Shown here: positions 4,695 to 19,005 of the stretch, one piece after another | Position numbering within the stretch: position 1 is the first letter of the stretch | How the letters are laid out: every line of letters begins with the position of its first letter | IMG/VR virus record: IMGVR_UViG_3300035661_000312 | Span: 1-25,372 of that record | DNA length: 25,372 bases | Strand: one strand, 5' to 3' | Source: a virus | Notes under the pieces: model-generated | Database searches by the model: none | The model's input: the letters and a program-made list of their open reading frames with translations, nothing else | What the model was told of the DNA's origin: nothing | Translations under genes and position numbers: made by a program

Positions 4695-4751
4695 TAAGTG
4701 ATTAATTAAGTGTTTCATTAGTAACTAGTGATACAAGTATAAATAGTTCGC

Positions 4752-4772
4752 ATTGTTCCAAAGTTGAACTAA
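4752..4772 (-). repeat. 3' boundary repeat, copy 1
   Basis: This 21-nt stretch lies just after the stop codon of the beta-helix gene and 58 nt before the start of the muzzle-like gene. It matches 16664-16684 except for two adjacent bases. On the minus strand it reads TTAGTTC, two variable bases, then CTTTGGAACAAT. Its GTTC...GAAC ends form an imperfect palindrome. It could be a recombination boundary, a shared leader element or a promoter part: a TTTG lies about 17-18 nt before TATACTTG, which resembles the Bacteroidota TTTG / TAnnTTTG promoter with one mismatch. The second copy lacks an equally good downstream box, so the promoter reading is weak. Confidence 0.7.
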
Positions 4773-4775
4773 GAT

Positions 4776-5786
4776 TTAAGGTGTAATATTAACCCCATTC
4801 AGACTAATGTTTTCAAATAAATCTGCCGGATCAAAATAATAATTTGGTTTTGCTGAGTTATTTATGATATTTGTCATTGTTATGTTTTTGCAAGCAGCCA
4901 TAAAACAACTAACATAGTCCTGCGCTATTCCCGATACGATTACATCATCAATAGTAATATCGTAAACATCATCTTTACTCCCTGTTGATTCATTGTAAGT
5001 ATATATAATTGACCCACATGACTTAGGCCTGTGCCCATGTGATGATATACCATGTATCGGATTCCCTGCGCCAGTGCATAAAGCAAGTAATGACCCCACT
5101 ATTGTGCGTGTTGGAGAAAAATTATGACAATTAATATTATAAACACCTTGAGTATTATAATTCGCTATTCCTGCATTAATTGCAAAATCAGCATTAGGAT
5201 GGGTGTTTATGGCAAAAAAATCATCTTCGGTAACACCTGTTATATTGTATATTTCAAGATCGTGTGAACCATAACAAATATCTATGCCATCTTCGTTCCC
5301 TATTTCAGTGTAACGATTTAATCTTATATCGTGCATACTACCATAAGAGCATTTTTGCAAAACAGTACTCCACCTCATAGCATCCAACATCGTGAATCCA
5401 CTTATTTCAAAATAGGTTACATTACAAAATGCAATTGCCAAATATTTATAAGCGTTGACAGCACCATACCTGCCATACTCCACGCAATTATCATCATTTG
5501 CTGATGTCTGTTCAATGCTAAAATTACCTAATCCAATTATCTTACAGTTAGTATTTCCATTTACAAAATCCGAATTTCTAAATATATTATCCCTAATACC
5601 AGAAGCAAGTTTCACTTTTGCATTTTTACCGTAAACAGTCCGGTTAGAAGGTATTTTAATACTTTCGGCTACAATAAATATTCCATCCTTAATAATTATA
5701 TCACCGACTAAAATGGCAGCGTTAATAGCACCTGAACAATCAGTAACACCATCCGCTACAGCTCCGTATAATCTTATATCAATCAT
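4776..5786 (-). CDS. Pectate-lyase/GH28-like right-handed beta-helix tailspike subunit
   Basis: The protein has 336 residues. It opens directly with DIRLYGAVADGVTD (3-16), the classic N-terminal signature of the pectate-lyase superfamily (Pectate_lyase_3) seen in phage tailspikes and polygalacturonases. Further on are NEDGID (164-169) and EDD (187-189) in the order of the GH28 'N-x-D' and 'DD' motifs, and two His-Gly pairs (245-246, 250-251) where GH28 has its GHG. It is therefore a plausible glycan-cleaving enzyme acting on host capsule or other surface polysaccharide; the substrate cannot be read. There is no N-terminal particle-binding domain and no signal peptide. It begins 3 nt after the stop of the LamG fibre gene, so I infer that it docks on that fibre as a separate catalytic subunit. 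An alternative is a non-enzymatic beta-helix. The fold is near certain, catalysis less so. Confidence 0.8.
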   Translation of the reverse strand: MIDIRLYGAVADGVTDCSGAINAAILVGDIIIKDGIFIVAESIKIPSNRTVYGKNAKVKLASGIRDNIFRNSDFVNGNTNCKIIGLGNFSIEQTSANDDNCVEYGRYGAVNAYKYLAIAFCNVTYFEISGFTMLDAMRWSTVLQKCSYGSMHDIRLNRYTEIGNEDGIDICYGSHDLEIYNITGVTEDDFFAINTHPNADFAINAGIANYNTQGVYNINCHNFSPTRTIVGSLLALCTGAGNPIHGISSHGHRPKSCGSIIYTYNESTGSKDDVYDITIDDVIVSGIAQDYVSCFMAACKNITMTNIINNSAKPNYYFDPADLFENISLNGVNITP

Positions 5787-5789
5787 TGT

Positions 5790-7190
5790 TTATGGGTTTA
5801 GTGTTGTGAAATCTCTGTTCGATATTACCACGTCCCTTATTACTGTTTGTGTTCCGGTAAGACCTAAACCTGACATGAAAAAATTTAGCTCTCCTATTGC
5901 ATAGTTAATAGTAGTTCCCATTTGCACCCATTGATCGTTAGACCATTTGTAAACAGATATTTCGTGTAGTGGAGTAATAATAATTTTAATCTGAGCAAAA
6001 TCATAAATATCTGTTTGTATTTTTAATGTTGCTCCATTATTTTGTTTAACGTAAAGTGAAAACTTTACTCCGTTTGCTACATCTCTTGAAAAATAAACAC
6101 CATCTTTTGTTGAATTGGTTAATAGACCTATTTGTTTTGAATTATCAACCTGACTATATGATGCAATATCGAGCATAGAAAATTTCCAAACGCCAAAGGA
6201 TGCCGATACCTTTGATTTGATAATGTTGGTGTAAATTGTTGAAGATGATCCTGCTAATAAATCCATTGCAATTCCGTTATTTTGCGAAAAAGCAACGGCT
6301 AATGGATTCGGATTTGTTACAGTCCACTTATCGGTATCAATGACACTTCCATCACAAGCATCAGAAAATAAAATTGCAGGTCTTATTGCTTGTAAAAGTT
6401 CAGCCCACGCATCATTCAATAAGTTTATTTCAGATTGATCTAAATAACTCGCACCAAATTCAAGCCCTATTGTATTTGTTCCAAAATCTGAAGTTACACC
6501 AGGCTTATTATCTGCAAGAGTATATAATTCCCTATTTGCAATAGGTGCAGATGCTATTGTTTTAACAATTTTCTCTTCTTTATTTACATGAAAGTTGAAA
6601 TTAGCTGAACTATTTCTTGTTAGACATAATAAGTAGTTGCTACTATATAATGGTGATAAACCATAATTTCCATTTAGAGCAAAGTAGGCATTGAACGCAT
6701 TCAAATTTGGAGCCATAAGGATAGATTGCGCACCATCATCAATACCATCAATCGTCTTACCAACTTCTTTATTATTTGCATAATACCAACCATACGAAGC
6801 ATTGTTTTGTGTGAATTTTGTGCCTCCGTTTGCGGTTGGGTTAAATCCTGTTTTAATATAACTTGAAGATCCATCTCCTGTAAAACCCTTTCCTGCTATA
6901 TAGGTAGGTGCTGTTGTTGATAGTGTTGCTTTTGTTGCAGGGGCATTAATCCATAATAAAGCATCAACAGCATCAGGCATACCCCAAGCATAAGGGATTA
7001 TATGCACGAATTTTGCCCAAATACCACCATCCACCAATGTTTTTACAAATGCGTTCTGTGCTGCCTTTATGCTTGAACTTGGCTGTGTTCCTGTAATAGC
7101 AGCTAAGACAGCTTTATATTCAGCAGTATAGTTCACATTTGTCCCTTTGTGAATTAAAACTGGACTAAGTCCATATATAGGATTAATCAT
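5790..7190 (-). CDS. Tail fibre with two concanavalin/LamG-like domains
   Basis: The protein has 466 residues. A short N-terminus carries LIHKGTNVN (12-20), shared with the SGNH tail protein at 16681-18486 and probably a docking or assembly motif. A helical stretch (about 22-60) follows. A LamG-like beta-sandwich spans about 90-270: it includes KGFTGDGSSSYIKTGF, and its end, 'SEINLLNDAWAELLQAI', matches in style the end of the SGNH protein ('AQVNAITDAFELYMDT'), so the two domains look paralogous. A second beta-sandwich runs from about 272 to 460 and starts with FSDACDGSVIDTDKW, as in concanavalin-like sugar-binding domains. The likely role is glycan recognition at the cell surface. It is followed after 3 nt by the beta-helix gene. 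It ends in TAA. The base use has more G and C than the core genes. Domain calls are by eye. Confidence 0.75.
   Translation of the reverse strand: MINPIYGLSPVLIHKGTNVNYTAEYKAVLAAITGTQPSSSIKAAQNAFVKTLVDGGIWAKFVHIIPYAWGMPDAVDALLWINAPATKATLSTTAPTYIAGKGFTGDGSSSYIKTGFNPTANGGTKFTQNNASYGWYYANNKEVGKTIDGIDDGAQSILMAPNLNAFNAYFALNGNYGLSPLYSSNYLLCLTRNSSANFNFHVNKEEKIVKTIASAPIANRELYTLADNKPGVTSDFGTNTIGLEFGASYLDQSEINLLNDAWAELLQAIRPAILFSDACDGSVIDTDKWTVTNPNPLAVAFSQNNGIAMDLLAGSSSTIYTNIIKSKVSASFGVWKFSMLDIASYSQVDNSKQIGLLTNSTKDGVYFSRDVANGVKFSLYVKQNNGATLKIQTDIYDFAQIKIIITPLHEISVYKWSNDQWVQMGTTINYAIGELNFFMSGLGLTGTQTVIRDVVISNRDFTTLNP
7131..7157 (-). repeat. 5' boundary repeat, copy 1 (encodes the LIHKGTN motif)
   Basis: This 27-nt stretch in the first codons of the LamG fibre gene matches 18433-18459 in the SGNH gene with one mismatch; the core of 21 nt (7137-7157) is identical. 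It encodes LIHKGTN followed by V or L and N. The identical synonymous codons in two otherwise diverged proteins suggest recent recombination or gene conversion, not only protein-level constraint. Confidence 0.85.
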
Positions 7191-7199
7191 AATATCTAG

Positions 7200-7478
7200 T
7201 TAATAACCAATAGCCAAACCACTAGCAAGAGTAACGGCTGTTATTGGAAAGTTATTAAAAGGAAAAATTGTGCCAGCTGGATATACTGTTGCCTCAAAGT
7301 TTTTTAATGTAAAAACATCAATAGAACCTGAATCAAGTTTAGTAAATACAGTATCAGTAAGAATCACAATCTTTTTAAGATTAAGTCCAGTAAGTGCTGT
7401 AGTTTTAATTATTTGAAAGTTATTACCACTCATATCAGATAGTAATCCAATCATTGCTTCTCCTATTTGATTATCCAT
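7200..7478 (-). CDS. Small beta-rich phage structural protein
   Basis: This 92-residue protein has no signal peptide or membrane segment. Its C-terminal half (VYPAGTIFPFNNFPITAV, then TLASGLAIGY) resembles the common 'aGt...p..iTsitLaSG.viaY' ending of small proteins in Bacteroidota phage structural blocks, where such proteins sit beside fibre genes and probably decorate or cap the virion. The middle has ILTDTVFTKL, also usual in that group. It sits between the 120-residue protein (11 nt upstream) and the LamG fibre (9 nt downstream), so it is translated with them. The leader ends ACAATT just before ATG, as in several other genes here. I cannot assign a specific role; an adaptor for the fibre is one possibility. 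Confidence 0.55.
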   Translation of the reverse strand: MDNQIGEAMIGLLSDMSGNNFQIIKTTALTGLNLKKIVILTDTVFTKLDSGSIDVFTLKNFEATVYPAGTIFPFNNFPITAVTLASGLAIGY

Positions 7479-7489
7479 AATTGTAAGTA

Positions 7490-7852
7490 TTATTGAACAT
7501 TAATTATTAAATCTGTTACTTCATCTACACTATCAGCAAATGTAATATCCCAATGAATGTCATCTGCATTACGAACAAATCCAGATATTATATTAGAATA
7601 ATCAGTACCACTACCATTGGCTTCAACTTTCATTGCATTATAAAATGATGGTTGTTTAGTAAGTTCAGGCGTAAAAGTAGAACCTAATGCTATTTGTCCA
7701 GTGCCAATATTTAGTATGATGGTCTTAGTATAAACCGTAGTAGCGACAGTAGCAGTAATAATATCTACGATTTTAACTAAATTATTAATTGATTCAACTA
7801 ATATAACACCTAATGGGTTATTTGTTGTTGCAGTTATTTGTAATTCATCCAT
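7490..7852 (-). CDS. Hypothetical small virion-associated protein
   Basis: I do not recognise this 120-residue protein. It begins MDELQITATTNNPLGVILVESINNLVKIVD, with a short amphipathic helix, and continues as alternating beta-type segments with no cysteines, signal peptide or membrane span. The opening is similar in style to the 152-residue protein at 18498-18956 (NNGLGIAIADKLDEIVNNIN). Each of these lies upstream of a fibre gene carrying the LIHKGTN motif, so they may be equivalent components of the two receptor cassettes. The gene starts 18 nt after the stop of the holin-like gene and has a leader with AATACTTATAACC before the ATG. The similarity is weak and by eye only. Confidence 0.5.
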   Translation of the reverse strand: MDELQITATTNNPLGVILVESINNLVKIVDIITATVATTVYTKTIILNIGTGQIALGSTFTPELTKQPSFYNAMKVEANGSGTDYSNIISGFVRNADDIHWDITFADSVDEVTDLIINVQ

Positions 7853-7870
7853 GGTTATAAGTATTAAAGA

Positions 7871-8188
7871 TTATGTAGCGTCTGTTGTTTTAGTTATAGC
7901 ATCTTCACTACTGACGCTAGTTTCAATTTTAGTTGTAACACCAGGTATTCCATTCTTAAGAAAGAATTCAGTACCTATTACTCCAAGTGCAACTAATTCA
8001 ATAATTACATAAGACACAAGAATAGGTATAGAGATATTAGTTTTAAGTTGCAAACTAGTTTTAACTAGATCAGATAACATATAAATTACTATATATGCTA
8101 TTGCACGTTTACTGCTTGTATTACCTTTTTGATCTTCAAAGAAACCAGCAAACCATCTTATTGTTTTATACCACCATTTAGTTTCCAT
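7871..8188 (-). CDS. Holin-like membrane protein
   Basis: This 105-residue protein has an aromatic, positively charged N-terminus (KWWYKTIRWFAGFF), two predicted membrane segments at about 28-45 and 52-77, and a polar Ser/Thr-rich tail of about 25 residues. Size, two spans and a SSKR stretch just before the first span resemble small phage holins, which form lesions in the inner membrane at lysis. No endolysin is visible nearby, so the lysis role is inferred from the architecture only. It lies between the secreted beta-helix gene (5 nt upstream) and the small beta-rich genes. A different membrane role, such as superinfection exclusion, would fit equally well given the two signal-peptide genes just before it. 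Confidence 0.5.
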   Translation of the reverse strand: METKWWYKTIRWFAGFFEDQKGNTSSKRAIAYIVIYMLSDLVKTSLQLKTNISIPILVSYVIIELVALGVIGTEFFLKNGIPGVTTKIETSVSSEDAITKTTDAT

Positions 8189-8193
8189 ATCAT

Positions 8194-10191
8194 TTAGTAT
8201 TTGATTGTTTTACCATTATATTTAACTATTTTACCATCTTTATTAATTGATAATCCATTTGAATTATTAATAGGAAGCTGAACATAGCTATAATCCTTAA
8301 AAAGTAAAACAGATGTGTAGGGAAGAAGAGTAATTGAATTTGTAAAAGAAACTCCCTTAACTGTTAAATATCTCCAATTAAGAATTACCGTTGAATTAGT
8401 AGCTGAGGCATTATATAAAAATTGAATCCCCTCAGCATTGTAAGGAGTAGAAAGCGAATGAGCATCCTGTCCGCTGTAAGTTTGCCATTGAGCCAACGTT
8501 TTATAACTAGTTGATCCTAATAAAACAGTTTTAAACTTTGTACCCTCATCCGATGGGCGCATGTAATAATTACTATCAATGATTCCGGAAATTGAAATAT
8601 CATTAACATTTGTTCCATCATATAATGGATACTGCGAACTTAATGTAGAGTAGCTTTGATTACGCGTTATATTCAATCCTCGTCTAAGATCATAGGATAT
8701 ACTGTATGCATACATAATACCAATATCATTATTATAAAGAATATTATCGTATGCAGTAATCTCGTGACAGGCATGAAAATAAAGACCTGTTGAATTTCCT
8801 GATGAAGAATTATTGTAAACTAAAGTATTAGCTGTATTATCATCCAGATAAATACCATTTACTTCAACCGTGGAACCAGTTGTACCATAACTTGCAGTTT
8901 TAACAGTAGGATTGTTTATTACAATGTTATTGTAAATCTTTCTACCAGTGTAATTATTACCACCAGTATAGATACCGCCACCATCATCCAGAATGTTACA
9001 ATAATTAGTTACATAATTATTGCGTACAATGCTATTATTACCTGAAAACTTAATTCCGATATAGCCTGTACTATCCACTCTATTAAACTCAACTAGACAG
9101 TTATTAACACCACTTTGATTAAGTGATATTCCTCCATAAGTTGTAGTACCATCACCACCCATGCCTGGTATCATTGCTATGTTATGAATATAGCAATTAG
9201 TAATCGTAGTTGGAGCTAAAGAATAAACACCTCTATTGTTACATTTTGAAATATTACAGTTATCTACTACAAGAGAAGTACCTGTATATCCATTAATTCC
9301 ATTATCCCCACAAAATGATATATTACAATATTTAACGGTATTAGCCGTACCTGTTGAATACACTGCATCGCTATTTGCACCTTGTAAATCTAAATTATAA
9401 ACTGTGATATAACTACGTACGCTTAGATTAAAAAGTCTATTGATTGTAGCAATTTTAATAGTGTACGTATTAGGATTGTTACCACCAAAATAAACAGATA
9501 ACTTACCTGAAACATAACACCATTCACCAAGTACATCTAAAGTTCTTATATCTTGTTGAAAAAAGAAACCATAACCATCTACTGCATCAACTACTGATGG
9601 ACTTGTGTAATTAATTGTAGTACCTGAATGTGAAGTAACTGCACATCTGTCCCATATCCAATGAGCCTTTCGGATAACAACTTTAGCCCCTGTCCAATCA
9701 GTTGTTGAAGAATTTGTTGCAGCATCAACAAACGAAGTATAACCAGTATGACTATCAATAGTTAAATAAGTTGTATTTGGAAACCTACCAAGAGGCTGAT
9801 TAATACCATTAAAAGAAAGAACATTAAGAATAGATTCGGTTGTAATGACTTTACTATAAACACCACCTCCATCATTTGTCCAACCTGATACAGTTGTAAA
9901 ACCTGTAATTATCGGTTTCGCTCCAGTTCCATAAGCCGCAAATACAATTTGATTGCTTACATTACCACTTGTGGTTGGAATAATTGTTCCATAAAATGTA
10001 TCTCCTCTTTTGAAAAGCACTGAATCACCAGCAGCAAATGAAAAAGAATTTACTTTAGTAATAGATGACCAAGCTAGTGCATCAGAAGTACCAGCAAGTG
10101 CATCACTTCCAGTAGATTTTATATAGTAATTGGTAGCATTCAATAAAGATACCATTAAAAACAGTATGATTATTAATAATAGTTTTTTCAT
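8194..10191 (-). CDS. Secreted right-handed parallel beta-helix protein
   Basis: The protein has 665 residues. It opens with a textbook Sec signal peptide (MKKLLLIIILFLMVSLLNA, cleavage likely after residue 19), followed by NYYIKSTGSDALAGTS and many Asn-rich turns of a right-handed parallel beta-helix (for example NNCLVEFNRVDS, NSIVRNNYVTNY, KIYNNIVIN). A C-terminal segment with LPYTSVLLFKDY looks like the beta-domain that closes many Bacteroidota glycan-active beta-helix proteins, and the last residues are DGKIVKYNGKTIKY. Such proteins usually bind or cleave polysaccharide. A signal peptide is unexpected for a tailspike, because virion proteins assemble in the cytoplasm. It may be a host gene taken up by the phage, a surface modifier of the infected cell, or a spike derived from such a gene. 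It follows the 284-residue signal-peptide gene after 27 nt. Confidence 0.8.
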   Translation of the reverse strand: MKKLLLIIILFLMVSLLNATNYYIKSTGSDALAGTSDALAWSSITKVNSFSFAAGDSVLFKRGDTFYGTIIPTTSGNVSNQIVFAAYGTGAKPIITGFTTVSGWTNDGGGVYSKVITTESILNVLSFNGINQPLGRFPNTTYLTIDSHTGYTSFVDAATNSSTTDWTGAKVVIRKAHWIWDRCAVTSHSGTTINYTSPSVVDAVDGYGFFFQQDIRTLDVLGEWCYVSGKLSVYFGGNNPNTYTIKIATINRLFNLSVRSYITVYNLDLQGANSDAVYSTGTANTVKYCNISFCGDNGINGYTGTSLVVDNCNISKCNNRGVYSLAPTTITNCYIHNIAMIPGMGGDGTTTYGGISLNQSGVNNCLVEFNRVDSTGYIGIKFSGNNSIVRNNYVTNYCNILDDGGGIYTGGNNYTGRKIYNNIVINNPTVKTASYGTTGSTVEVNGIYLDDNTANTLVYNNSSSGNSTGLYFHACHEITAYDNILYNNDIGIMYAYSISYDLRRGLNITRNQSYSTLSSQYPLYDGTNVNDISISGIIDSNYYMRPSDEGTKFKTVLLGSTSYKTLAQWQTYSGQDAHSLSTPYNAEGIQFLYNASATNSTVILNWRYLTVKGVSFTNSITLLPYTSVLLFKDYSYVQLPINNSNGLSINKDGKIVKYNGKTIKY

Positions 10192-10200
10192 GTTAGTTAT

Positions 10201-10230
10201 AGTTAGTATGCTAATTAGTTAGTATGCTAA
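10201..10230 (-). repeat. Tandem 14-nt direct repeat at a gene junction
   Basis: The 14-mer agttagtatgctaa (plus strand) occurs at 10201-10214 and again at 10217-10230, and a shortened third unit (tatgctgat) follows. The array covers the last codons and stop of the 284-residue gene and the leader of the beta-helix gene. It looks like a local duplication that extended the spacer. It may mark an insertion junction or affect translation of the downstream gene. Confidence 0.8.
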
Positions 10231-11073
10231 TATGCTGATCATAAAAGGACTAATCCCTGAAACTGTACCCTGCATTGTAATCGGAGTTGGTAGTGTAGAT
10301 TGAGTGTTAATAAAAGAACTTAACGCAATAGAGGAATTATTTATCCAGCCTTGGGCAGCATTAATCAGAATCCCAATGCTATTTGCTGGAAAAGTAGGTG
10401 CTGTTGTTTGCGCGCTACTATTATAAAGTATGGCAATATAATAGTATCCAGGTGCAATTGTTACAGGACTTGGTAAATTTTTAATGCCAATAGTATTGGC
10501 TGTTGTTGCCCAAATAGTTCCATCATTAGCAGTTTCACTTATTTTTGTAATAACACCATTGCTAAAACTATAGAGTGCAATGCCGTTATAATTATCAGCT
10601 GTATATGAACCAGCTACCAGTAAAGAATATTTAAATCCGGTAACAGTAATACTATCAGCTGTATAACATAAGGTAAAAATAGCCCTTCCATCTGTAAGTG
10701 CATAAGAGTCATTAAATTCAGGAGGACACAGTGGTAACATCTTTATTGTTGAACCAAAACTGCTATAGGCTTTTAGTAGTTCAGATTTTACGGGTTCAGT
10801 TTTAAAATCATAACGTGAAGTATAACTACCTGGTTTTTGATAGATACTATCAGGTCTAAGTACTAAAACTACTTTAGCTTGTAATGTATCTTTACTTGTT
10901 TTATTCCATAGATCAACACTTGTCTTATCTACATTAACACCCATAACGTTTAAAGCTTTTGTAAACCAATTGGTTCCAGTATGCTTCCAATTTTTATTAT
11001 CAGGTGTTTGATTAAATGCTAGTAATGGTGTAAGACTAGCTATTAAAATTATAATTAAAAGTTTAGTTCTCAT
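10219..11073 (-). CDS. Signal-peptide protein with a phage receptor-binding-type beta domain
   Basis: The protein has 284 residues. The N-terminus MRTKLLIIILIASLTPLLAFN is a clear Sec signal peptide with cleavage near residue 20. Residues 20-120 are polar and unrecognised (a NWFTKALNVMGVNVDKTSVDLWNKTSKDT stretch suggests a short helical linker). From about 130 to the end is a beta-sandwich with VAGSYTADNYNGIALYSF, ETANDGTIWATTANT and APGYYYIAILYNSSAQT. From memory this sequence style recurs in the receptor-binding tips of phage tail proteins. A tail-tip-type domain behind an export signal is unusual. It lies between the FISUMP gene and the secreted beta-helix gene, and its 3' end is inside the tandem repeat. 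It may be displayed on the host surface or be a modified fibre; the function is unknown. Confidence 0.6.
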   Translation of the reverse strand: MRTKLLIIILIASLTPLLAFNQTPDNKNWKHTGTNWFTKALNVMGVNVDKTSVDLWNKTSKDTLQAKVVLVLRPDSIYQKPGSYTSRYDFKTEPVKSELLKAYSSFGSTIKMLPLCPPEFNDSYALTDGRAIFTLCYTADSITVTGFKYSLLVAGSYTADNYNGIALYSFSNGVITKISETANDGTIWATTANTIGIKNLPSPVTIAPGYYYIAILYNSSAQTTAPTFPANSIGILINAAQGWINNSSIALSSFINTQSTLPTPITMQGTVSGISPFMISILAY

Positions 11074-11097
11074 AATTGTTAAGTGTTAAATTAGTAA

Positions 11098-11772
11098 TTA
11101 TTTATTGTTTATATCATTATTATACCAACAATAACCAGGTGTTGTAAGTGCTGCCCATGCTGTATTATCAGTTACATTAGGTATTAGTGTACCATCGTTA
11201 AATTTAGTTACTGCTATGTTTCCTGTTAACCAAACCTGATTGCCTATTTTAGTTGTACCGTAAATATTTCCATCAATATCGGTTACTGTCATCCCTGCAT
11301 ACCAAGTTTCTGGTGCGTTTAAAAGACAGCGAATAGAATGACCATTTTTCATTGGTGTAGTGCCTACATATCCAGTATTATCAACTCTAAGTCCCGCACC
11401 ATATGCAAACGCACTTCCATATTCTGTTATAGATTTAAAAGATCCTGAATTTAAAATATTATTAAAATAAGGTGTATAATAATAATCTCTAAACCCAGCA
11501 CCTCTACCATTGAATCCCACTTCATTGGTTCCTGTATTTGTTGGATTCCAGTATGTTAATCCAGATTCTTTTAACTTAACAGCTCCAATATCGTATCCAC
11601 CTAAACCAGTAAAAAGAATTTCCCATTCTGTTTTACTCGGCACATGACACCCAATCGGCGCAATACTTCCAACTCCACTACCTCCGTTTTTACTTGCCGC
11701 AGGCCAATTATACAATGCACCATATTTAATTGGTGTAAGTAAATTAAGTTTAGGTGTATATAATATGTTCAT
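11098..11772 (-). CDS. Circularly permuted FISUMP-domain protein, probable receptor-binding tip
   Basis: The protein has 224 residues. It contains both halves of a Fibrobacter-succinogenes major paralogous (FISUMP) domain, common in Bacteroidota surface proteins, but in reversed order. The usual C-terminal half comes first: YGALYNW (17-23), CHVPSKTEW (42-50), a LKESGLTYWN segment (67-76), GFRD (93-96) and HSIRCL (145-150). The usual N-terminal half follows: VTDIDGNIYGTTKIGNQVW (163-181), KFNDGTLIPNVTDNTAWAAL (190-209) and CWYNND (215-220). There is no signal peptide or lipobox. It overlaps the upstream fibre gene by one base (TAATG), so translation is probably coupled and the two may form one fibre. 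FISUMP resembles C-type-lectin-like folds, which fits ligand binding. Domain identity is very secure; the receptor role is inferred. Confidence 0.85.
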   Translation of the reverse strand: MNILYTPKLNLLTPIKYGALYNWPAASKNGGSGVGSIAPIGCHVPSKTEWEILFTGLGGYDIGAVKLKESGLTYWNPTNTGTNEVGFNGRGAGFRDYYYTPYFNNILNSGSFKSITEYGSAFAYGAGLRVDNTGYVGTTPMKNGHSIRCLLNAPETWYAGMTVTDIDGNIYGTTKIGNQVWLTGNIAVTKFNDGTLIPNVTDNTAWAALTTPGYCWYNNDINNK

Positions 11773-12548
11773 TATACTAATTGTATTCGTAATTTACCAG
11801 TTAATCTTGTAGCAGTAGATGCCCCATTCGTAACTAATGTTACTTCATCACCAAGTATAGCATCATTAAAAGCACTAGCTAGTGTAGTAGATTTAGTATT
11901 AGTTGATGATATATTATCTAATCCTGTTATTGCTATATTATTTATGTTAATAGCAATTCCTGTCATATTTTGATCTGATCTAAGTACACAAGATATAATC
12001 TTATATGGAGTAGATGCATCAAGATCTAATATATACGTTTGAACAGTATTACCAGTTATATCTGGATAATCAAATGCTATATCTTGTATGAAATTCATAC
12101 TACCAGGAGTAGGTCCATTAGAAAATATAACATTACCATTAGCATCAGTAGTTAACCATTTAAGTGGTGTTCCATTAATAAAGTTTATACCTCTAGTCAT
12201 AAGATTAGTAACATATAAGTTACCATCTAAATTAACTCTATGCGTAAAAGTAGGGTTAACTGCTTGTAAATAGAAGTATGCAATAAGAGGATCAATAAGT
12301 TTTTTAAGTGAATAAGGATCAGCTGTTACAACTTCTGCTGGTGTAATATTAAGATCAAGTAAACCTTTAACTGCTGTAGGATAAATATAACCTGTTGTAT
12401 TAGCACCAATAGCTGTAGCTAATTCTGCTATAGTTATGTATTTTGCATTAGGATATGAAGTATTATCGACAGGAATACGTAAAGACATTACAATACTAAG
12501 TGCATGTTCTAAATCTTTAATACGTTTGCTATCTATTAAATCAGCCAT
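11772..12548 (-). CDS. Probable tail fibre or fibre-shaft protein
   Basis: This 258-residue protein has no signal peptide or membrane segment. The N-terminus (MADLIDSKRIKDLEHALSIV) is helical and could bind the tail. The middle has HRVNLDGNLYVTNLMTRGI and LKWLTTDANGNVIFSNGP, the kind of repeating short beta segments ('lttdanGnv') seen in trimeric phage fibre shafts. The C-terminal 100 residues are Thr/Ile/Asn-rich beta. It starts 1 nt after the stop of the ring-type gene and overlaps the FISUMP gene by one base. I infer that it is the shaft to which the FISUMP protein attaches. Codon use is like the core genes, unlike the fibre cassettes. The fibre call rests on sequence style and position, not on a named family. 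Confidence 0.55.
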   Translation of the reverse strand: MADLIDSKRIKDLEHALSIVMSLRIPVDNTSYPNAKYITIAELATAIGANTTGYIYPTAVKGLLDLNITPAEVVTADPYSLKKLIDPLIAYFYLQAVNPTFTHRVNLDGNLYVTNLMTRGINFINGTPLKWLTTDANGNVIFSNGPTPGSMNFIQDIAFDYPDITGNTVQTYILDLDASTPYKIISCVLRSDQNMTGIAININNIAITGLDNISSTNTKSTTLASAFNDAILGDEVTLVTNGASTATRLTGKLRIQLV

Positions 12549-12549
12549 A

Positions 12550-13275
12550 TTACGGAGTTGTTATTAGAGTACTTGCTGGAATAAAACCTTGAGTATAAAA
12601 ATAATCATAGTTTTTAATAAATTCACGAGTCATTTCAGAGAATATTCTACGTTCACCTTGATCCATTGTACCAACACTATTTCTAGCTTTCTTCCTAGTC
12701 TTTTCCCATAGAATACCAACATTAGTATATGGATTATTTTTGTCAAGATTAAATATAGAATGTACATATCCATTTTGTAAAAGTCTTATCATAAGAAACC
12801 ATTGTATTGTCATAATAACATGAATGTTATCAATAACTTTAGGCATTACTATACCATATTCATTAACAGTTTCTAATGCTGGCATATAATAATAAAATGT
12901 AGCAATACCACTTTCAACACCAAACGTTATAATACTAGCACCAGCTAAACCTGATTTAATACTATATTTATAACGATGATCAGTAGATATAATTTTATTA
13001 TCTACTTTAGCATTATTTGCAGTATGAGGTTTAAGTGGAATACCATTAATTGTTACACGATCAAGAATCTTTAAACTAATAGGTACAACACATTGATAAT
13101 CAGTAATTGCAACATCAATTTTAACATATTCCATAGCTGGAAGTATATCCATATCAGCTATGCAATCAGCTATTATTAATGGCATATCTGCAATCCAATT
13201 AGTGTTATCTAGTTTTAGATTAAAATCTATTCTAGCTATAACTTCATTTCCTGGTATGTATTGTATAACTCCCAT
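12550..13275 (-). CDS. Conserved crAss-like connector/ring protein
   Basis: The protein has 241 residues. The segment NTNWIADMPLIIADCIADMDILPAMEYVKIDV (about 24-55) has the look of a protein conserved in crAss-like phages near the head-tail interface, followed by beta-rich central parts (YKYSIKSGLAGASIITF, GIATFYYYMPAL). The C-terminal third is helical and charged (LWEKTRKKARNSVG, ERRIFSEMTREFIKNYDYFYTQGF). No signal peptide or membrane span. It begins right after the stop of the 297-residue gene and belongs to a tightly packed group of four connector-type genes. I infer that it forms one ring of the portal-tail stack. Which of the numbered ring proteins of the solved crAss001 virion it matches cannot be told from sequence alone. 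Confidence 0.6.
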   Translation of the reverse strand: MGVIQYIPGNEVIARIDFNLKLDNTNWIADMPLIIADCIADMDILPAMEYVKIDVAITDYQCVVPISLKILDRVTINGIPLKPHTANNAKVDNKIISTDHRYKYSIKSGLAGASIITFGVESGIATFYYYMPALETVNEYGIVMPKVIDNIHVIMTIQWFLMIRLLQNGYVHSIFNLDKNNPYTNVGILWEKTRKKARNSVGTMDQGERRIFSEMTREFIKNYDYFYTQGFIPASTLITTP

Positions 13276-14169
13276 TTATTCAAATTTTAAAGCGTAACTA
13301 GGATCATGTTTTAAAAGTATATTTAGTTTATTAGAAAAACCAAGTTTAGAATTATTAATAATATCTTCACTATCAGTATTATATTCATCTAATACATCAG
13401 ATATTAATCTATTTTTAGTATTGATAAAACTATTAGGATCGAACTTAAAAAATTTAATCAATCTATGTGCATACATAGATATTCTCCAATTAATATAATA
13501 GATATAAGGTTCAGTATGATAAAGAAACCAATGTTTGCCATTAGGTGCTGTTTCTTTATTATAAGGTTCAATACCTTGTTCAATAAGTGTTTTTTTAAAC
13601 TTATTGCTTTCACCCCAATCAATAGATCTATCAGTAGGTAAACCTGTTTCATCAAATTTGCGTTCAATCTTGTCTATACCAATAACACCAATTTTGACTT
13701 CTCCAATTCCTAGATTGAAATCATAACCTCGTAATATAGATTTGCTCATTTCATTATTAATTGCCGTATTAAGATAGTTAAATGATAAATATGGCATTTT
13801 TAAAGACTTATAATAAGCTAAACGATTAGTATTATGGAATAATCGTACATTAGATATAATTAATATACGAACTTTAAAAGCAAGCATTTTATATTTAGGA
13901 TGATCAACATCTGCTTCAATCAGACTACGAACTAAAGATTCTTTATTTTTATCTAATAAATAATCAGTATTTCTATCTGATGTAAGTTCAATATATGAAA
14001 TCAATTGAATAAGATTAGTTTTAAATGAATACTTTTTATGTAATATAGTAATATCAGCAACTGTCATTGCAACTATATCAATAAGTTTATTATTTAAAGC
14101 TAATTCTTTATCATATAAAGCACATGCTTTAGTATCAAATGTATCAAATACTACGTTTATATTTTTCAT
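13276..14169 (-). CDS. Conserved structural-block protein, probable ring/tail component
   Basis: The protein has 297 residues and is mainly helical and charged, with no signal peptide or membrane segment. It has a repeated NxxDFNxG/SxxW-like arrangement only loosely; the most distinctive part is HWFLYHTEPYIYYINWRISMYAH (about 214-237), followed by RLIKFFKFDPNSF. Its start codon overlaps the stop of the upstream ring-type gene by one base (TAATG), which points to coupled translation and a fixed ratio with it. The position among connector genes suggests a virion or assembly role. I do not recognise a named domain. A shorter in-frame start is not suggested by the spacing. Confidence 0.5.
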   Translation of the reverse strand: MKNINVVFDTFDTKACALYDKELALNNKLIDIVAMTVADITILHKKYSFKTNLIQLISYIELTSDRNTDYLLDKNKESLVRSLIEADVDHPKYKMLAFKVRILIISNVRLFHNTNRLAYYKSLKMPYLSFNYLNTAINNEMSKSILRGYDFNLGIGEVKIGVIGIDKIERKFDETGLPTDRSIDWGESNKFKKTLIEQGIEPYNKETAPNGKHWFLYHTEPYIYYINWRISMYAHRLIKFFKFDPNSFINTKNRLISDVLDEYNTDSEDIINNSKLGFSNKLNILLKHDPSYALKFE

Positions 14170-14867
14170 TAGTTATTATCTAGATGTGTAGCTTCAACTT
14201 TATCTTTACTATCTGTAACAGTGAGTTCTCCCTGTAGGAGAGAAAGTTTAATCTGCTGTACCATATCTTGAGTAATAGGAAATTCCCTATCATCATCAAA
14301 AACAAAATCTTTAAATACATCAGGTGTTTGACTAAGTCTGGGATCACTAGGTACTTGTAATACTAAAAGTGTTTTAGGTGCAATAACTGCATCTGTTGGT
14401 GGATTTGCAAGTGGATCAGCAGGAGTTATAATTACATTAGGTAAATTCCAAAGTTGTAATCTATCTTCACTAAAATCATAACTTGGACCAGCACCTACAT
14501 TTGGTAAAATATTAGTAAATTTTCTACTACTGATTTTACGATAGGAATAAGGCACATCACCATCTTCTTCTCCTACATATATAAATGGACAATTAGATGA
14601 ATATCTTAAAGGTCTTGGTATTTTATTAACTGTTTGGTAATAAGGTCTAGCTAAAGTCTTACCATTTATAGTAGTAACAAGTCGTAGTTCAGTAATTAAG
14701 TATGATAATACAAATTCATCATCAATACCATATTTAGTTATGCTACGACTAACAAACATAGCAAACTCTTGAATAACTAATTCTTTAAGTCTTTTCTTAA
14801 ATGGACCATCAGTAGGTCTATTAAGAGCATCTGCTAATTGAGTAACTATATGATTAAGTGTAGCCAT
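14169..14867 (-). CDS. Connector/ring protein of the head-tail interface
   Basis: The protein has 232 residues when started at the inner ATG (MATLNHIVTQLADALNRP...). I prefer this start over the ATG at 14888 because it removes a 20-nt overlap with the upstream gene and leaves one base between stop and start, as elsewhere here. The N-terminal half is helical (FKKRLKELVIQEFAMFVSRSITKYG, then FVLSYLITELRLV); the second half is Pro-rich and extended (PLRYSSNCPFIYVG, LWNLPNVIITPADPLANPP, FVFDDDREFPIT). This helix-then-extended-arm design resembles portal-proximal adaptor or ring proteins of podoviruses, and the opening looks like a conserved crAss-like protein. The arm could reach into neighbouring rings. 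The exact ring number is not assignable. Confidence 0.6.
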   Translation of the reverse strand: MATLNHIVTQLADALNRPTDGPFKKRLKELVIQEFAMFVSRSITKYGIDDEFVLSYLITELRLVTTINGKTLARPYYQTVNKIPRPLRYSSNCPFIYVGEEDGDVPYSYRKISSRKFTNILPNVGAGPSYDFSEDRLQLWNLPNVIITPADPLANPPTDAVIAPKTLLVLQVPSDPRLSQTPDVFKDFVFDDDREFPITQDMVQQIKLSLLQGELTVTDSKDKVEATHLDNN

Positions 14868-14868
14868 A

Positions 14869-15288
14869 TTAATTATTCTTATATGCATTATTTAGATTAC
14901 GTGCTGCTATTTTAGTTTTATTATTTACAACACCAATTAAAAGATTTAATGTTTCATTATTTTTATCTAATTTTTCACCTATTAATTTATGATCTTCTCT
15001 ATTTTCTGTTCGATCTTGTCTTATAGAAAATTCTAATGTAGTTTTATTTGCTTCTAATGCAGTAATTCTGCTATTAATATTAGTCCAAGCAGCACCAATA
15101 GTAACTGTAAAGGTTAGTAAAAGACTAATTACAAGATACACTTGACCAAATGTTATACCAAATTTTGTTTCTTTTTCAGGACTCATAACGGTAAGGAGTT
15201 TACAAATGAGATTATTAGTTTGTTTAATACGAAGTGATAATTCCTTATTCCAATGAGTTATGATATGTTGTATTGCATATTCTCTCAT
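14869..15288 (-). CDS. Single-span membrane protein with C-terminal coiled coil
   Basis: The protein has 139 residues from the ATG at 15288. One strong membrane segment lies at about 46-67 (FGQVYLVISLLLTFTVTIGA), followed by a charged coiled coil (about 70-120: ITALEANKTTLEFSIRQDR, GEKLDKNNETLNLL). The start could also be at residue 35 (ATG at 15186, MSPEKETKFGITF), which would leave a 45-residue N-terminus out; the outer start is kept because it has the AATT-ATG leader shared with other genes and lies 6 nt after the upstream stop. One span plus coiled coil recalls spanins, XhlA-like lysis proteins or membrane anchors used in DNA entry. A membrane protein among connector genes is unusual. No lipobox is visible. 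Function unknown. Confidence 0.5.
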   Translation of the reverse strand: MREYAIQHIITHWNKELSLRIKQTNNLICKLLTVMSPEKETKFGITFGQVYLVISLLLTFTVTIGAAWTNINSRITALEANKTTLEFSIRQDRTENREDHKLIGEKLDKNNETLNLLIGVVNNKTKIAARNLNNAYKNN

Positions 15289-15294
15289 AATTGT

Positions 15295-16623
15295 TTAGCT
15301 TTTAGATGATTGGCTTTGAGCATTAACAGTAGAATATAACTGTGGTTGATTAGTAGCTACAATTTCTTTAACCGCTAATGTTACAAGTTGTGGATGAACA
15401 CTAACATTCATATCAGTTTCAACATTCATATCACTATCCATTATAATAGGTTGTCTTACATAAGTTAATGACACACCATGTATGTTATATCTATTATTAT
15501 GGTAAACACTAATTTTATTACTATTAAGTGTATATATAGGATTAACATCTACACCTAAATAAGGATGATCTAAAAATGCATCAATATCATTTGGTTTTAC
15601 AAGTCTACATATTATAGAATCTAATTCAATAAAAGAACCTTCTGAATAAACAGTTATATCACCAATAATACTAGAATCCCATATTGGAGTTCCTGATTTA
15701 GTTGCTACAAATATATACCCTTCTTCAACATTTTCATATTTACTACCAAACGTTGTAAGATCAATGAATCTTCCAAAATGTATAACTTTATAACTTTTAC
15801 CTTTAATAAGATTAGATGCAGCCAATCTATTAATATTACGAATTTCAACTAATGCGTTAAGTGATATATGTTCAAATATATTAAGATTCTTAATAGCTAT
15901 TAATTTAAAATTAGGAGGAGTTGCAGTATTAACAAATGTAATACCTAATATTTCAAGTTCTGCATCCATTTCGGATATAAGACTATTCTCATCAGTAAAT
16001 GTATATTCATAAGAATCAGTATGATCACATATAAATATTGTTCCTGCATTATTATTTGCAGCACCAAATACTGTAAAATCAACACTACAGGCTTTAATAA
16101 TTTTATATTTTATACCAGCATATACATCAAATACATAATGTGCTGTTGAAGTTGCATATGTTCTATATTTAATAGAAGTATGAGGTATAGTAAATAAATC
16201 ATTTTCAACTATTACTTCACCTGTATAAGCATATTGTTCTGTAATAAATACAGCTAATTGTTCATTTAAATTACCAACTTCTTCAACTTTATATTGCACA
16301 CCTGCTATAAGCATACTTGTACCAGTTGCTACTTCATCATATTTAGGTAATATATAATCATTATAATTACCAAATTGTCCAATATATTCTAATGTATTAA
16401 TAATTAAATAAGGTTCAAGAATATTATAATAATTAGAAATTTCAATATAACTTTCACTATTCATAATACTATGACGAACATCTTCAGCAGTAGTATGAAT
16501 AAGATCCATAATAACTTTATTAAAGATATAATCTTTCTCTTGTGGTAATAATCTACTTAACAATGTAGGATTAAACACTTTAAGTGCTAGATCAATACCA
16601 ATATGAAGTTGTTTGTTTGTCAT
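15295..16623 (-). CDS. Connector/tail protein with inserted repeated beta modules
   Basis: The protein has 442 residues. The ends look like a conserved crAss-like virion protein: LLPQEKDYIFNKVIMDLI (25-42) at the start, and PNDIDAFLDHPYLGVD (344-359) through HPQLVTLAVKEIV near the C-terminus. Between them are three similar stretches: LIAGVQYKVEEVG (about 105-117), YAGIKYKIIKACSVDFTVFGAANNNAGTIFI (168-198) and IKGKSYKVIHFG...FGSKY...GYIFVATKSGTP (273-313). They follow the pattern 'G-x-x-Y-x-[IV]...D-[FL]-T-x-[FI]-G...G-x-[IV]-F', a small beta module common in phage virion proteins. The core therefore seems to carry decorating insertions. It follows the SGNH cassette after a 57-nt gap that holds one of the boundary repeats. 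The head-tail role is inferred from neighbours and conserved ends. Confidence 0.55.
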   Translation of the reverse strand: MTNKQLHIGIDLALKVFNPTLLSRLLPQEKDYIFNKVIMDLIHTTAEDVRHSIMNSESYIEISNYYNILEPYLIINTLEYIGQFGNYNDYILPKYDEVATGTSMLIAGVQYKVEEVGNLNEQLAVFITEQYAYTGEVIVENDLFTIPHTSIKYRTYATSTAHYVFDVYAGIKYKIIKACSVDFTVFGAANNNAGTIFICDHTDSYEYTFTDENSLISEMDAELEILGITFVNTATPPNFKLIAIKNLNIFEHISLNALVEIRNINRLAASNLIKGKSYKVIHFGRFIDLTTFGSKYENVEEGYIFVATKSGTPIWDSSIIGDITVYSEGSFIELDSIICRLVKPNDIDAFLDHPYLGVDVNPIYTLNSNKISVYHNNRYNIHGVSLTYVRQPIIMDSDMNVETDMNVSVHPQLVTLAVKEIVATNQPQLYSTVNAQSQSSKS

Positions 16624-16663
16624 AATGATAGATTGTTTTAATGCTTAATGTTAAAAGATTCAA

Positions 16664-16684
16664 ATTGTTCCAAAGGAGAACTAA
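16664..16684 (-). repeat. 3' boundary repeat, copy 2
   Basis: This stretch includes the TAG stop of the SGNH gene and the following bases, 41 nt before the connector gene. It matches 4752-4772 over 21 nt with two adjacent mismatches. In both places the element is at the 3' end of a receptor cassette and in the leader of the next core gene, so it may be a recombination border or a shared regulatory leader. Confidence 0.7.
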
Positions 16685-18486
16685 ACAACTCCCTTGCCTC
16701 TTGTGTCCATATACAACTCAAAAGCATCGGTAATTGCATTAACTTGCGCTTGTGTAAATGCTTTTCCTACAAATAAAATAGATACTTGTCCGGCTGTGAA
16801 TCCTGTTGGAGTTTCGGGGTTGTATGCTCCAATCAATATTTTTGCATTTGTTAAAAAACCCCTACCCGTATTGGTACGAGCGTACTGAACTTTGTTTTGA
16901 TAATACTTTTCAGTCGTTGCAGAATCCCTTATTAAAATAGATAGTCCGTTAACATCTGAACCACCTGTGGCAACCCACCAACTCGAACTATTCATTGCAC
17001 AATACCCGCCCGCAGATTGAAATAATACAGATAAACCATCAGCATACTGTCCTGCTAACATACTTCCGCTTCTTTTATATATACCAATAGAAGCGGAATT
17101 GATTGTAAATGTTATACCTTCCGTTGGCGTTGCCGGAGTATAATTTGAATTAATATATTGATTAATTCCGTTAAGTGTAATCCCTTCGTATTTTGTAAAT
17201 GTCGGTGCATTGACTAACGTTGGATTAGTCGCATTTTTAACTAAATTTTTAAGTGATGTTTCTGTCGTTTCACTCGAAAATAGTACAATATCATCAAAAC
17301 TATCTGACAGATTTGCGCTTGATGTTGTTGCCTTTAAATCAATTACAAGTTTATCAATCCTGTTAATTTCAGCTTTTGAAAGTTTAGTTGTTAATCCAGT
17401 GATATATGTCTTGGTTTCAGCCTGCAAAGCGTTGTAATAAGCATTATCTATATTTAATATGCTGTTCAGTTTGAAAGCCATCGCATGACCTAATTGAGTA
17501 TAACCACCTCCAACTGGGTGCAATCCGCTATTTGCTGCATTGCCATAGCCTGTAATTCGATCTAAAAACAACGGCTCATAACTGCATGTTACGTTTGCAT
17601 TAAAAGTACCTTCAGCGAAATAATCAGCAAAGGTTTTCCAGAAGTGATGCACGTTCTCAATATGCTTGTCGTGAATGTAAACACTTTCATCATAGTCTAT
17701 ATTCCAGGCTGTATCGCCTCCATTACTGAAAGTCGGCAAGGAAAGCATAATTTTAATATCATGATTATAAGATAAAAAGGCATTTATCAAAGTAGTTGCC
17801 TGACCAATAAAACCGCCCAAATCTCCATCCGTTAAAGGACTACCAACAGCACAACGGGCAAATACATCATTAACTCCCAATCCTATTATTATATAATCAG
17901 GAACTGAAATAGAATTGTCAGTAAAATAAGCGGGTATATTCAATGCTCCTGCCTTTACAAATGGGCTACCTGCATTGTTTAAAAACTGATAGAAACTAAA
18001 TCCGCTAATTCCTTCATGCTTGTATGTCGTTCCTTTAGTGCCAACAAAGGTTATATTGTTACCATGAATTGCACGGATTGAATCTTCGTAATAACCCGAA
18101 CCACTAACGGTAAGGGAATCGCCTATAAGCATTATTTTTTTAGTCGAAGCCGTTGCTTTAGCCTCAACTATTAAATTGATAGTTTTTGAAACAATTAACA
18201 GCCCTTTGTTTTTAAAGTCAATTACACAAGGGTATGTTCCGGCTGCGGGAGTTGTTAATACTAAATTATTTCCTGATTGTGTACCGATTGAACAAGTGTA
18301 AGTAACCGTCAAATTATTAACAACAGGTACATTAATCAGTGTGTCCCCGTAAATCGTTTGAGTTTCCCCTGCTATTAAAGTAACTCCATTAGCAGGCAAA
18401 GCGAAAAACGGCAATAAACCCCATGCCGGAAGGTTCAAATTTGTCCCTTTGTGAATTAACTCAAATGTTTTATTAAACGTTCCCAT
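16681..18486 (-). CDS. Tail protein with SGNH (GDSL) esterase and LamG-like domains
   Basis: The protein has 601 residues. ELIHKGTNLN (9-18) is the motif shared with the LamG fibre. An Ig-like beta domain spans about 35-110. An SGNH hydrolase domain spans about 116-346: block I IMLIGDSLTVSG with the nucleophile Ser124, possible block II Gly159/162, block III GLGVND with Asn206, and block V SGLHPVGGGYTQLGHAMA with His323. A concanavalin/LamG-like domain follows at about 435-598. Such esterases remove acetyl or other acyl groups from surface glycans, so the protein probably modifies and binds host polysaccharide during adsorption. The usual Asp three residues before the catalytic His is Ser320 here. 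The gene ends in TAG, the only non-TAA stop I found, and has clearly higher GC than its neighbours (24/60 and 25/60 in two sampled lines, against 7/60 and 19/60 in two lines of the next gene). Confidence 0.87.
   Translation of the reverse strand: MGTFNKTFELIHKGTNLNLPAWGLLPFFALPANGVTLIAGETQTIYGDTLINVPVVNNLTVTYTCSIGTQSGNNLVLTTPAAGTYPCVIDFKNKGLLIVSKTINLIVEAKATASTKKIMLIGDSLTVSGSGYYEDSIRAIHGNNITFVGTKGTTYKHEGISGFSFYQFLNNAGSPFVKAGALNIPAYFTDNSISVPDYIIIGLGVNDVFARCAVGSPLTDGDLGGFIGQATTLINAFLSYNHDIKIMLSLPTFSNGGDTAWNIDYDESVYIHDKHIENVHHFWKTFADYFAEGTFNANVTCSYEPLFLDRITGYGNAANSGLHPVGGGYTQLGHAMAFKLNSILNIDNAYYNALQAETKTYITGLTTKLSKAEINRIDKLVIDLKATTSSANLSDSFDDIVLFSSETTETSLKNLVKNATNPTLVNAPTFTKYEGITLNGINQYINSNYTPATPTEGITFTINSASIGIYKRSGSMLAGQYADGLSVLFQSAGGYCAMNSSSWWVATGGSDVNGLSILIRDSATTEKYYQNKVQYARTNTGRGFLTNAKILIGAYNPETPTGFTAGQVSILFVGKAFTQAQVNAITDAFELYMDTRGKGVV
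18433..18459 (-). repeat. 5' boundary repeat, copy 2 (encodes the LIHKGTN motif)
   Basis: Matches 7131-7157 with one mismatch over 27 nt. It lies about 30 nt inside the SGNH gene and encodes LIHKGTN plus LN. See the copy at 7131-7157. Confidence 0.85.
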
Positions 18487-18497
18487 TAATTAAGTAT

Positions 18498-18956
18498 TTA
18501 CTTATTAATATAAACTTCTATATTAATATATCTATTAACAAGAATATTATCAACAGAAATTGTAAGATCACTAGCAGCATATGTATTAAGTTCTAGCACA
18601 TCAGTATTAATCCATTCTAATGTATATCCATTACCATTACCATCAGTAAACATATCAGGCTTAGTAGGGCTAACTGCTTGCGTAACAGATACACAATTTT
18701 CAATAAACATACCAACTTTAGTAATATGATACTTACCAGCAGCAATTCTACTCCAAACAGGTGATCCTAAATCATCTATTCTAATATCAGCAATTGGTGC
18801 ATTAGTAACAGTTTGTGTAAGATATGCAATATAATGTTTAATACGTGCAATATTTGTTGTTGTATTATTTATATTATTAACAATTTCATCTAGTTTGTCT
18901 GCAATAGCAATACCTAGACCATTATTTGTAATTGCATTTCTTTCTAAATTCTTCAT
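18498..18956 (-). CDS. Hypothetical small virion-associated protein
   Basis: I do not recognise this 152-residue protein. It starts with a helical stretch (NNGLGIAIADKLDEIVNNINNTTTNIARIKHYIAYLTQTV, about 11-50), a candidate coiled coil, and continues as a beta-rich domain (SRIAAGKYHITKVGMFIENC, GYTLEWINTDVLEL, DNILVNRYINIEVYI). No signal peptide. It is the first gene after the terminator hairpin and lies 11 nt before the SGNH tail protein. A helical stalk with a small beta head would suit a fibre adaptor or head fibre. Its N-terminus is vaguely like that of the 120-residue protein at 7490-7852, which occupies a similar place before the other fibre. Codon use is that of the core genes. Confidence 0.5.
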   Translation of the reverse strand: MKNLERNAITNNGLGIAIADKLDEIVNNINNTTTNIARIKHYIAYLTQTVTNAPIADIRIDDLGSPVWSRIAAGKYHITKVGMFIENCVSVTQAVSPTKPDMFTDGNGNGYTLEWINTDVLELNTYAASDLTISVDNILVNRYINIEVYINK

Positions 18957-18977
18957 ATTATCAGTTATAATAAATTA

Positions 18978-19005
18978 AACAGCCTCTCAATTAAGAGAGG
19001 CTGTT
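18978..19005 (-). terminator. Hairpin terminator after the capsid module
   Basis: Two perfect 11-nt arms (18978-18988 and 18995-19005, AACAGCCTCTC and its complement) enclose a 6-nt loop. On the minus strand the stem is followed by TAATTTATT, a weak T-rich tract. It begins 12 nt after the TAA of the last capsid-module gene. This is the only strong hairpin I found between genes, and it probably ends or attenuates the highly expressed capsid transcript. The stem would also fold on the plus strand. Confidence 0.8.

Follow-up and report, generated by a model that had tools for sequence, protein, structure and literature searches.

Putative receptor-spike bodies between paired short repeats at two loci of a crAss-like phage

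The DNA analysed here, hereafter the window, is the complete 25,372 bp IMG/VR record IMGVR_UViG_3300035661_000312, in which the minus strand carries all main genes. It contains two genes for putative receptor spikes, of 466 and 601 amino acids (aa), and each belongs to a cassette that has a 27-nt repeat near the start of the spike gene (the 5' border, coding for a peptide that we call the tag) and a 21-nt repeat at its far end (the 3' border, or 3' element). At locus 1 the 466-aa spike gene is followed by a 336-aa gene, and this cassette stands between a gene for a conserved 92-aa protein and the putative muzzle gene. The latter was assigned from its position, its size and the call made in a preliminary description of the window, and it matches the crAss002 'stabilization protein' distantly over a short stretch. 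At locus 2 a 152-aa gene and the 601-aa spike gene lie between core genes of 337 and 442 aa. Judged by its predicted proteins the phage is crAss-like, since the capsid, portal and ring-protein features of the Crassvirales were all found: the major capsid protein (MCP) and portal match crAss-type PHROG families, the nearest named MCP being that of the uncultured phage cr127_1 (44%), and the 239-aa and 241-aa proteins, as profiles with their relatives, weakly match phiCrAss001 ring proteins 2 and 1 (E about 0.006).

Both repeat pairs reported in the preliminary description were recovered. The 27-nt repeat occurs at 7131-7157 and 18433-18459 with 1 mismatch (0.00 expected from shuffled sequences), near the 5' end of both spike genes, and the 21-nt repeat lies at the 3' end of both cassettes, at 4752-4772 and 16664-16684, with 2 mismatches (0.01 expected). 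The latter extends to 27 nt (4746-4772 against 16658-16684, 22/27 identical), begins 3 nt past the stop codon of the 336-aa gene and overlaps that of the 601-aa gene. The search for border copies was limited to the 25,372 bp of the window, and no third copy of the 27-nt repeat with up to 3 mismatches was found there. The peptide encoded by the 27-nt repeat is LIHKGTN(V/L)N; it occupies residues 12-20 in the 466-aa protein and residues 10-18 in the 601-aa one. All 8 codons of the shared residues are identical between the cassettes, among them CAC, GGG and AAC, which this phage seldom uses; the chance of the same 8 codons being chosen independently is about 0.001 under cassette codon usage and about 4e-6 under core-gene usage. 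The identity of the tag DNA is thus not explained by protein constraint alone: beyond the peptide, the two 27-nt copies have a recent common origin at the DNA level.

Relatives (n = 9) were gathered by MCP search. The closest full relative is G001 (also L003; IMGVR_UViG_3300033565_000003, 55 kb), whose MCP is 87% identical to that of the window; the MCP segment of contig L004 is identical to the window's, but this contig stops short of both cassettes. A further search for locus-1 relatives with muzzle and 92-aa queries recovered G001 alone, and the border comparison at locus 1 was made with this one relative, both it and the window being partial. In G001, locus 1 consists of an 89-aa gene (69%), a single unrelated gene of 515 aa and the muzzle gene (73%). 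The two flanking genes are therefore 69-73% identical between window and G001, whereas the spike body between them is unrelated. With blastn, similarity stops at position 7131 and restarts at 4772, where the 27-nt and the 21-nt repeat, respectively, have their inner ends. The 515-aa protein begins MINPTHGLSPYLVHNLTNVN and the window spike MINPIYGLSPVLIHKGTNVN; only the first ~20 aa are alike, after which there is no similarity, and a homologue of the 336-aa gene was not found at locus 1 of G001. Because the repeats had been found from the window alone, an independent genome sets the edges of the exchange at the same bases. The presumed docking motif LIHKGTN named in the preliminary description is indeed coded by the 27-nt repeat in both spikes of the window, though it is not invariant, G001 having LVHNLTN in its place.

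Locus 2 is empty in G001 (L003), L005, L006, L007, L008 and L010, where the 337-aa and 442-aa core genes adjoin and a terminator-like hairpin is followed directly by the start of the next gene. This hairpin has a z value of -7.0 in the window, -4.7 in L003 and -5.7 in L005. Positions 5308-9960 and 9975-10330 of G001 align on either side of the locus-2 insert, with 14 nt between them.

Comparison of the three cassettes (locus 1 and locus 2 of the window, locus 1 of G001) gives a mosaic pattern. The tags of cassettes 1 and 2 differ at 1/27 bases, those of cassette 1 and its G001 counterpart at 6/27. Directly upstream of the tag this relation is reversed, as cassette 1 shares 29/33 bases with G001 and cannot be aligned with cassette 2. 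The 3' element is common to all three, and past it cassette 1 tracks G001 again. This mosaic of leader, tag and 3' element places the edges of recombination at the borders. Three different bodies have thus been seen between the borders, a small number drawn from two phages. The modules had been proposed to be interchangeable, which fits the border-to-border swap at locus 1 against G001 and the addition at locus 2; interchange between the loci was not seen, in that no body occurred at both locus 1 and locus 2 in the window and its relatives. GC content at third codon positions is 21-27% in the three cassette genes and 7-15% in core genes, as would be expected for recent arrivals.

The unrelated G001 body between the same borders at locus 1, together with the empty locus 2, indicates that the borders mark sites where spike bodies are exchanged or added. 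We therefore favour the explanation that in this crAss-like phage receptor-spike bodies are exchanged or added as border-to-border units, and give it a probability of roughly 0.68. The replacement at locus 1, the insertion at locus 2 and the agreement of the breakpoints with the borders are seen directly in the alignments. The tag codons, the deviant composition of the cassette genes and a resemblance between the two borders of each cassette, described below, also speak for it, as do the attachment peptides of phiCrAss001 and KP32 viruses as precedents. The proposed unit would span from the 27-nt LIHKGTN tag at the start of the spike gene to the conserved 3' element (GTTCNNCTTTGGAAC) at or just past the last stop codon. 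At locus 1, between the 92-aa gene and the muzzle gene, the body would have been replaced relative to G001, but not the leader of 11 codons, the tag region or the muzzle leader. A similar unit, preceded by a new short-fibre-like gene, would have been added at locus 2, where it separates a terminator from the structural gene that follows. The short shared ends would likely recombine by a homologous or annealing-type process. We infer that selection keeps the exchange, since the tag would hold an incoming body in frame and, by analogy with the phiCrAss001 fibres, probably docks the spike on the virion. The 3' element could act as a joint that leaves the leader of the next gene intact and would hence be kept by selection. 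The bodies themselves may bind or cleave host surface sugars, judging by their LamG-like, SGNH and GH28-like matches, the Pfam ones among them below cut-off.

Several observations weigh against this explanation. The alignment of relatives proposed in the preliminary description gave a different body, the same borders and homologous flanks in G001, but the more distant G003 and G004 have other genes at locus 1 and no borders, leaving G001 as the only relative that spans locus 1 with detectable borders. The tag itself is altered in G001, and leader and tag together differ between the two phages by 2 synonymous and 8 non-synonymous substitutions; in these tiny numbers there is no sign of purifying selection at the protein level. 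A donor of the cassette-2 body did not come to light, a search of IMG/VR having given no close relative of the 601-aa protein. The relatives searched, not all of them complete, gave no recombinase, RecT or ERF either. Finally, duplication of the locus-1 unit with replacement of the body would leave the same pattern as exchange between the loci. The features discussed are collected in Table 1.

Table 1. Features of the window at and around the two spike cassettes.
Feature	Position	Strand	Remarks
Muzzle gene (partial), downstream flank of locus 1	1..4695	-	73% to G001
3' border of cassette 1, start of muzzle-gene leader	4746..4772	-	TTAGTTCAACTTTGGAACAATGCGAAC, core GTTCNNCTTTGGAAC; G001 similarity restarts at 4772
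336-aa beta-helix protein, GH28-like (weak), second gene of cassette 1	4776..5786	-	Pfam match below cut-off
466-aa putative spike/receptor protein	5790..7190	-	11-aa leader, tag LIHKGTNVN, LamG-like body
5' border of cassette 1, codes for LIHKGTNVN	7131..7157	-	DNA similarity to G001 stops at 7131
11-codon leader of locus-1 spike, outside exchanged unit	7158..7190	-	29/33 bases common to G001; no alignment with cassette 2
92-aa conserved protein, directly upstream of locus-1 spike	7200..7478	-	69-70% to G001 protein at this place
~2.36-kb segment inserted at locus 2 (152-aa gene, spike gene, 3' border)	16625..18980	-	From G001 alignment
3' border of cassette 2	16658..16684	-	TTAGTTCTCCTTTGGAACAATTTGAAT; matches 3' border of cassette 1
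601-aa putative spike	16681..18486	-	Leader MGTFNKTFE, tag LIHKGTNLN, probable SGNH/GDSL (~118-257), LamG-like C-terminal region (~355-595)
5' border of cassette 2, codes for LIHKGTNLN	18433..18459	-	Copy of 27-nt repeat
152-aa short-fibre-like protein, inserted with cassette 2	18498..18956	-	Missing in relatives
Intrinsic terminator after 337-aa core gene, landing point of insertion	18978..19005	-	Kept at empty site in relatives

The strongest competitor is a simple duplication, in which the locus-1 spike and its edges were copied once to locus 2 in this lineage, the bodies then diverged or one was replaced, and the borders are mere remnants with no role in recombination. A single copy event would be enough, the tags are 26/27 identical between the loci and closer to each other than to that of G001, and a LamG-type region is still present in both bodies (27%). 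However, the bodies are too unlike for vertical divergence while the borders stay at 22-26/27, so that replacement near the borders would still be required, and the replacement at locus 1 against G001 also stops exactly at the borders. We consider duplication a serious candidate, at somewhat less than even odds. A fusion of different strains at the repeats during assembly would be conceivable in a metagenome contig, repeats being prone to wrong joins, but it is very improbable here: the longest exact run shared by the copies is 21 nt, under the usual assembly k-mers, the gene order at locus 1 is the same as in G001, and the upstream junction of the locus-2 insert has no such repeat.

The repeats could also be functional parts under constraint, the tag as a docking peptide and the 21-nt element as an expression signal (promoter or leader), in which case the breakpoints would only look precise, since neither part could be lost. 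The 3' element does lie at or 3 nt past stop codons and ahead of leaders in three cassettes, the same 18-mer stands directly past stop codons in contigs L037, L085 and L092, and short N-terminal docking segments are found in phiCrAss001 fibres. Constraint on the peptide would nevertheless leave the identical rare codons of the tag unexplained, there is no synonymous excess in leader and tag, and the 3' element occurs in bacterial genomes at chance level only, inside genes (ten matches in 85,000 genomes, located within open reading frames, ORFs). The element has no stable hairpin in the window, and a promoter is unconvincing. This alternative is possible, and a little less likely than duplication.

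A further alternative takes the borders as sites of a site-specific recombinase, that is, as related, roughly palindromic sequences of ~27 bp (TTARTTCA...TGAAC) at both cassette ends, one of them lying within the spike gene, where the fixed leader meets the variable body. Such a site would be read in frame as the docking peptide, and a recombinase supplied by phage or host would move cassettes between phages and between the two virion loci. When each 5' border is compared with its own genome, leaving the other tag aside, the 3' border of that cassette matches best in 3/3 cassettes (with a tie in cassette 2), at 18, 18 and 20 of 27 positions, the match in G001 being in inverted orientation. The G001 3' element matches the window tag, inverted, with 6 mismatches, where about 0 are expected in 80 kb (0 in 30 shuffles), and the dyad RTTCA-N14-TGAAC is common to the tags and this element, its arms occurring 14 nt apart in several copies of both kinds of border. 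The resemblance was noticed post hoc and is a lead; the dyad is weak in the 3' elements of the window. A tyrosine or serine recombinase was sought in G001 (55 kb) and G004 (96 kb) and not found, most of the genomes searched being incomplete, and no alternative body in opposite orientation was seen. Recombinase sites, and with them the movement of cassettes by a recombinase, are accordingly unlikely. Invertible tail-fibre systems, such as Mu gin/gix and the shufflons, have a crossover site in the fibre gene between a fixed leader and a variable body. The window cassettes are similar in having the crossover inside the spike gene and a second related site downstream, but neither a recombinase nor an inverted alternative body was found in this lineage, and an invertase system was rejected for lack of a tyrosine or serine recombinase in G001 or G004.

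Other roles for the borders were also considered and rejected. A terminator at the 3' element was dismissed, as no stable hairpin was found in the window copies; one is present in the G001 3' element. A Bacteroidetes-type promoter (TTTG, N17, TAnnTTTG) finds a TA at that spacing in several copies, which is weak given the AT-rich background. As a general signal the 3' element gave 107 matches in IMG/VR, 81 of them within ORFs, about chance level. LIHKGTN is not a widespread motif either: a degenerate pattern (with TTA as the leucine codon) had 7 matches in IMG/VR, 0 of them at spike-gene starts, and a two-mismatch search across the nine relatives gave no match. The core of the 3' border, TTAGTTCACCTTTGGAAC, was observed at or 3 nt past a stop codon in L037:46-80, L085:4613-4647 and L092:4479-4513. 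L037 is a short, probably crAss-like contig, with a portal ORF that appears crAss-like by eye; L085 is a phage contig with a LamG receptor gene within the same operon as the core; and L092 carries an ORF judged by eye to be reverse-transcriptase-like.

It is well established that receptor proteins can be modular, with bodies exchanged behind short N-terminal attachment peptides. In podophages it is standard for different bodies to follow a conserved N-terminus and for a second receptor protein to be attached by a short conserved peptide (PMC6872550); in KP32 viruses the second receptor proteins attach by a conserved 29-aa peptide and interrupt gene synteny (PMC6872550). The window resembles such proteins of T7/K1F, K1-5, G7C and the Klebsiella KP32 viruses in joining a short conserved N-terminus to unrelated enzymatic or lectin bodies, ~20 aa being common to G001 and the body unrelated, and in that the second receptor gene breaks the core gene order (PMC6872550, PMC8262889). 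It differs in that the shared part is near-identical DNA at two loci, paired with a 3' element, and in belonging to a crAss-like phage. Recent domain shuffling concentrates in receptor proteins, which are hot spots for it (PMC10684548). Short boundary sequences have long been proposed as points of recombination, although most mosaic junctions lack them (PMC3029335). As proposed for such sequences, the module edges in the window fall on short shared sequence, similarity ending there on both sides (in one relative, G001), but here a single receptor module has two conserved edges, and both are found again at another site.

Among the Crassvirales, the phiCrAss001 fibres dock via N-terminal residues 1-26, 1-38 and 1-58 (PMC10172136, in excerpt), and tail-spike genes are shared between genera (PMC10569736, in excerpt). 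The window would be comparable in the short N-terminal attachment proposed for its spikes and in the sharing of spike genes, while border repeats and a second-site cassette are not described for Crassvirales in those excerpts. Diversity-generating retroelements diversify receptor proteins in crAss-like phages (PMC11054128); the window differs by whole bodies and not by point variation, and such an element was rejected, with no reverse transcriptase in G001 or G004 and no candidate among the window ORFs. What appears to be new is that paired DNA borders recur at a second locus of one genome and agree with the breakpoints in a relative, and that a second insertion site lies behind a terminator. 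Defined borders would allow receptor modules to be excised automatically from metagenome contigs and would make receptor exchange in Crassvirales directly countable, and a tag working at two sites would point to a position on the virion where spikes dock. Crassvirales, of which few members have been cultured, are dominant phages of the gut and the environment, and little is known of how they change host recognition.

The cassettes had been described as differing in enzyme type. This holds for their Pfam matches, both below cut-off, which are SGNH/GDSL for the 601-aa protein (E 0.003) and a GH28-like beta-helix for the 336-aa protein (E 0.004), but the two cassettes also share a distant LamG-type lectin region (27% over 188 aa of the 466-aa and 601-aa proteins, E 2e-7). 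This region also occurs in Flavobacterium Elemovirus, and that of the 466-aa protein in phages of Rhizobium and Sinorhizobium as well. Residues 13-152 of the 466-aa protein are 37% identical to Flavobacterium Elemovirus 'YapH' proteins, residues 31-221 of the 336-aa protein 32% to Flavobacterium phage FL-1, and residues 40-149 of the 152-aa protein 37% (E 5e-4) to the tip of an Elemovirus tail-fibre protein. Predicted structures of the 92-aa and 152-aa proteins were unusable (mean predicted local distance difference test scores of 42 and 35). In a Flavobacterium Elemovirus (L026:19703-20765), a spike-base protein (NF048002) stands just ahead of a LamG spike related to the cassette-1 body. The 92-aa gene was rejected as such a protein, having no NF048002 match such as the Elemovirus neighbour has; thus, in contrast to the RcGTA-type head spike (NF048002), no spike base protein adjoins the window spike.

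Several further observations concern genes near the cassettes. A 120-aa gene (window 7490-7852, L022:2750-3112, 54% identical) lies near the spike, upstream of it, in the window and upstream of a 284-aa gene in G001, which suggests that small fibre-like genes are shuffled in the locus-1 region too. The 120-aa and 152-aa proteins begin alike (ITATTNNPLGV and NAITNNGLGI; E 0.006 in a single comparison), perhaps with a second short attachment tag. The fibre block also contains a beta-helix protein with a signal-peptide-like start (window 8194-10191, L022:3989-6286; 56% identical in G001) and a 224-aa protein with a Fib_succ_major domain (window 11098-11772, E 4e-18), for which no counterpart was seen in G001. 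A fibre-like gene at window 11772-12548, L022:1005-2519 and L023 (reverse) 5801-9385 conserves ~120-140 N-terminal residues, while its C-terminal parts are wholly different and the proteins measure 258, 504 and 1194 aa, as in a second gene with a longer anchor and a variable body.

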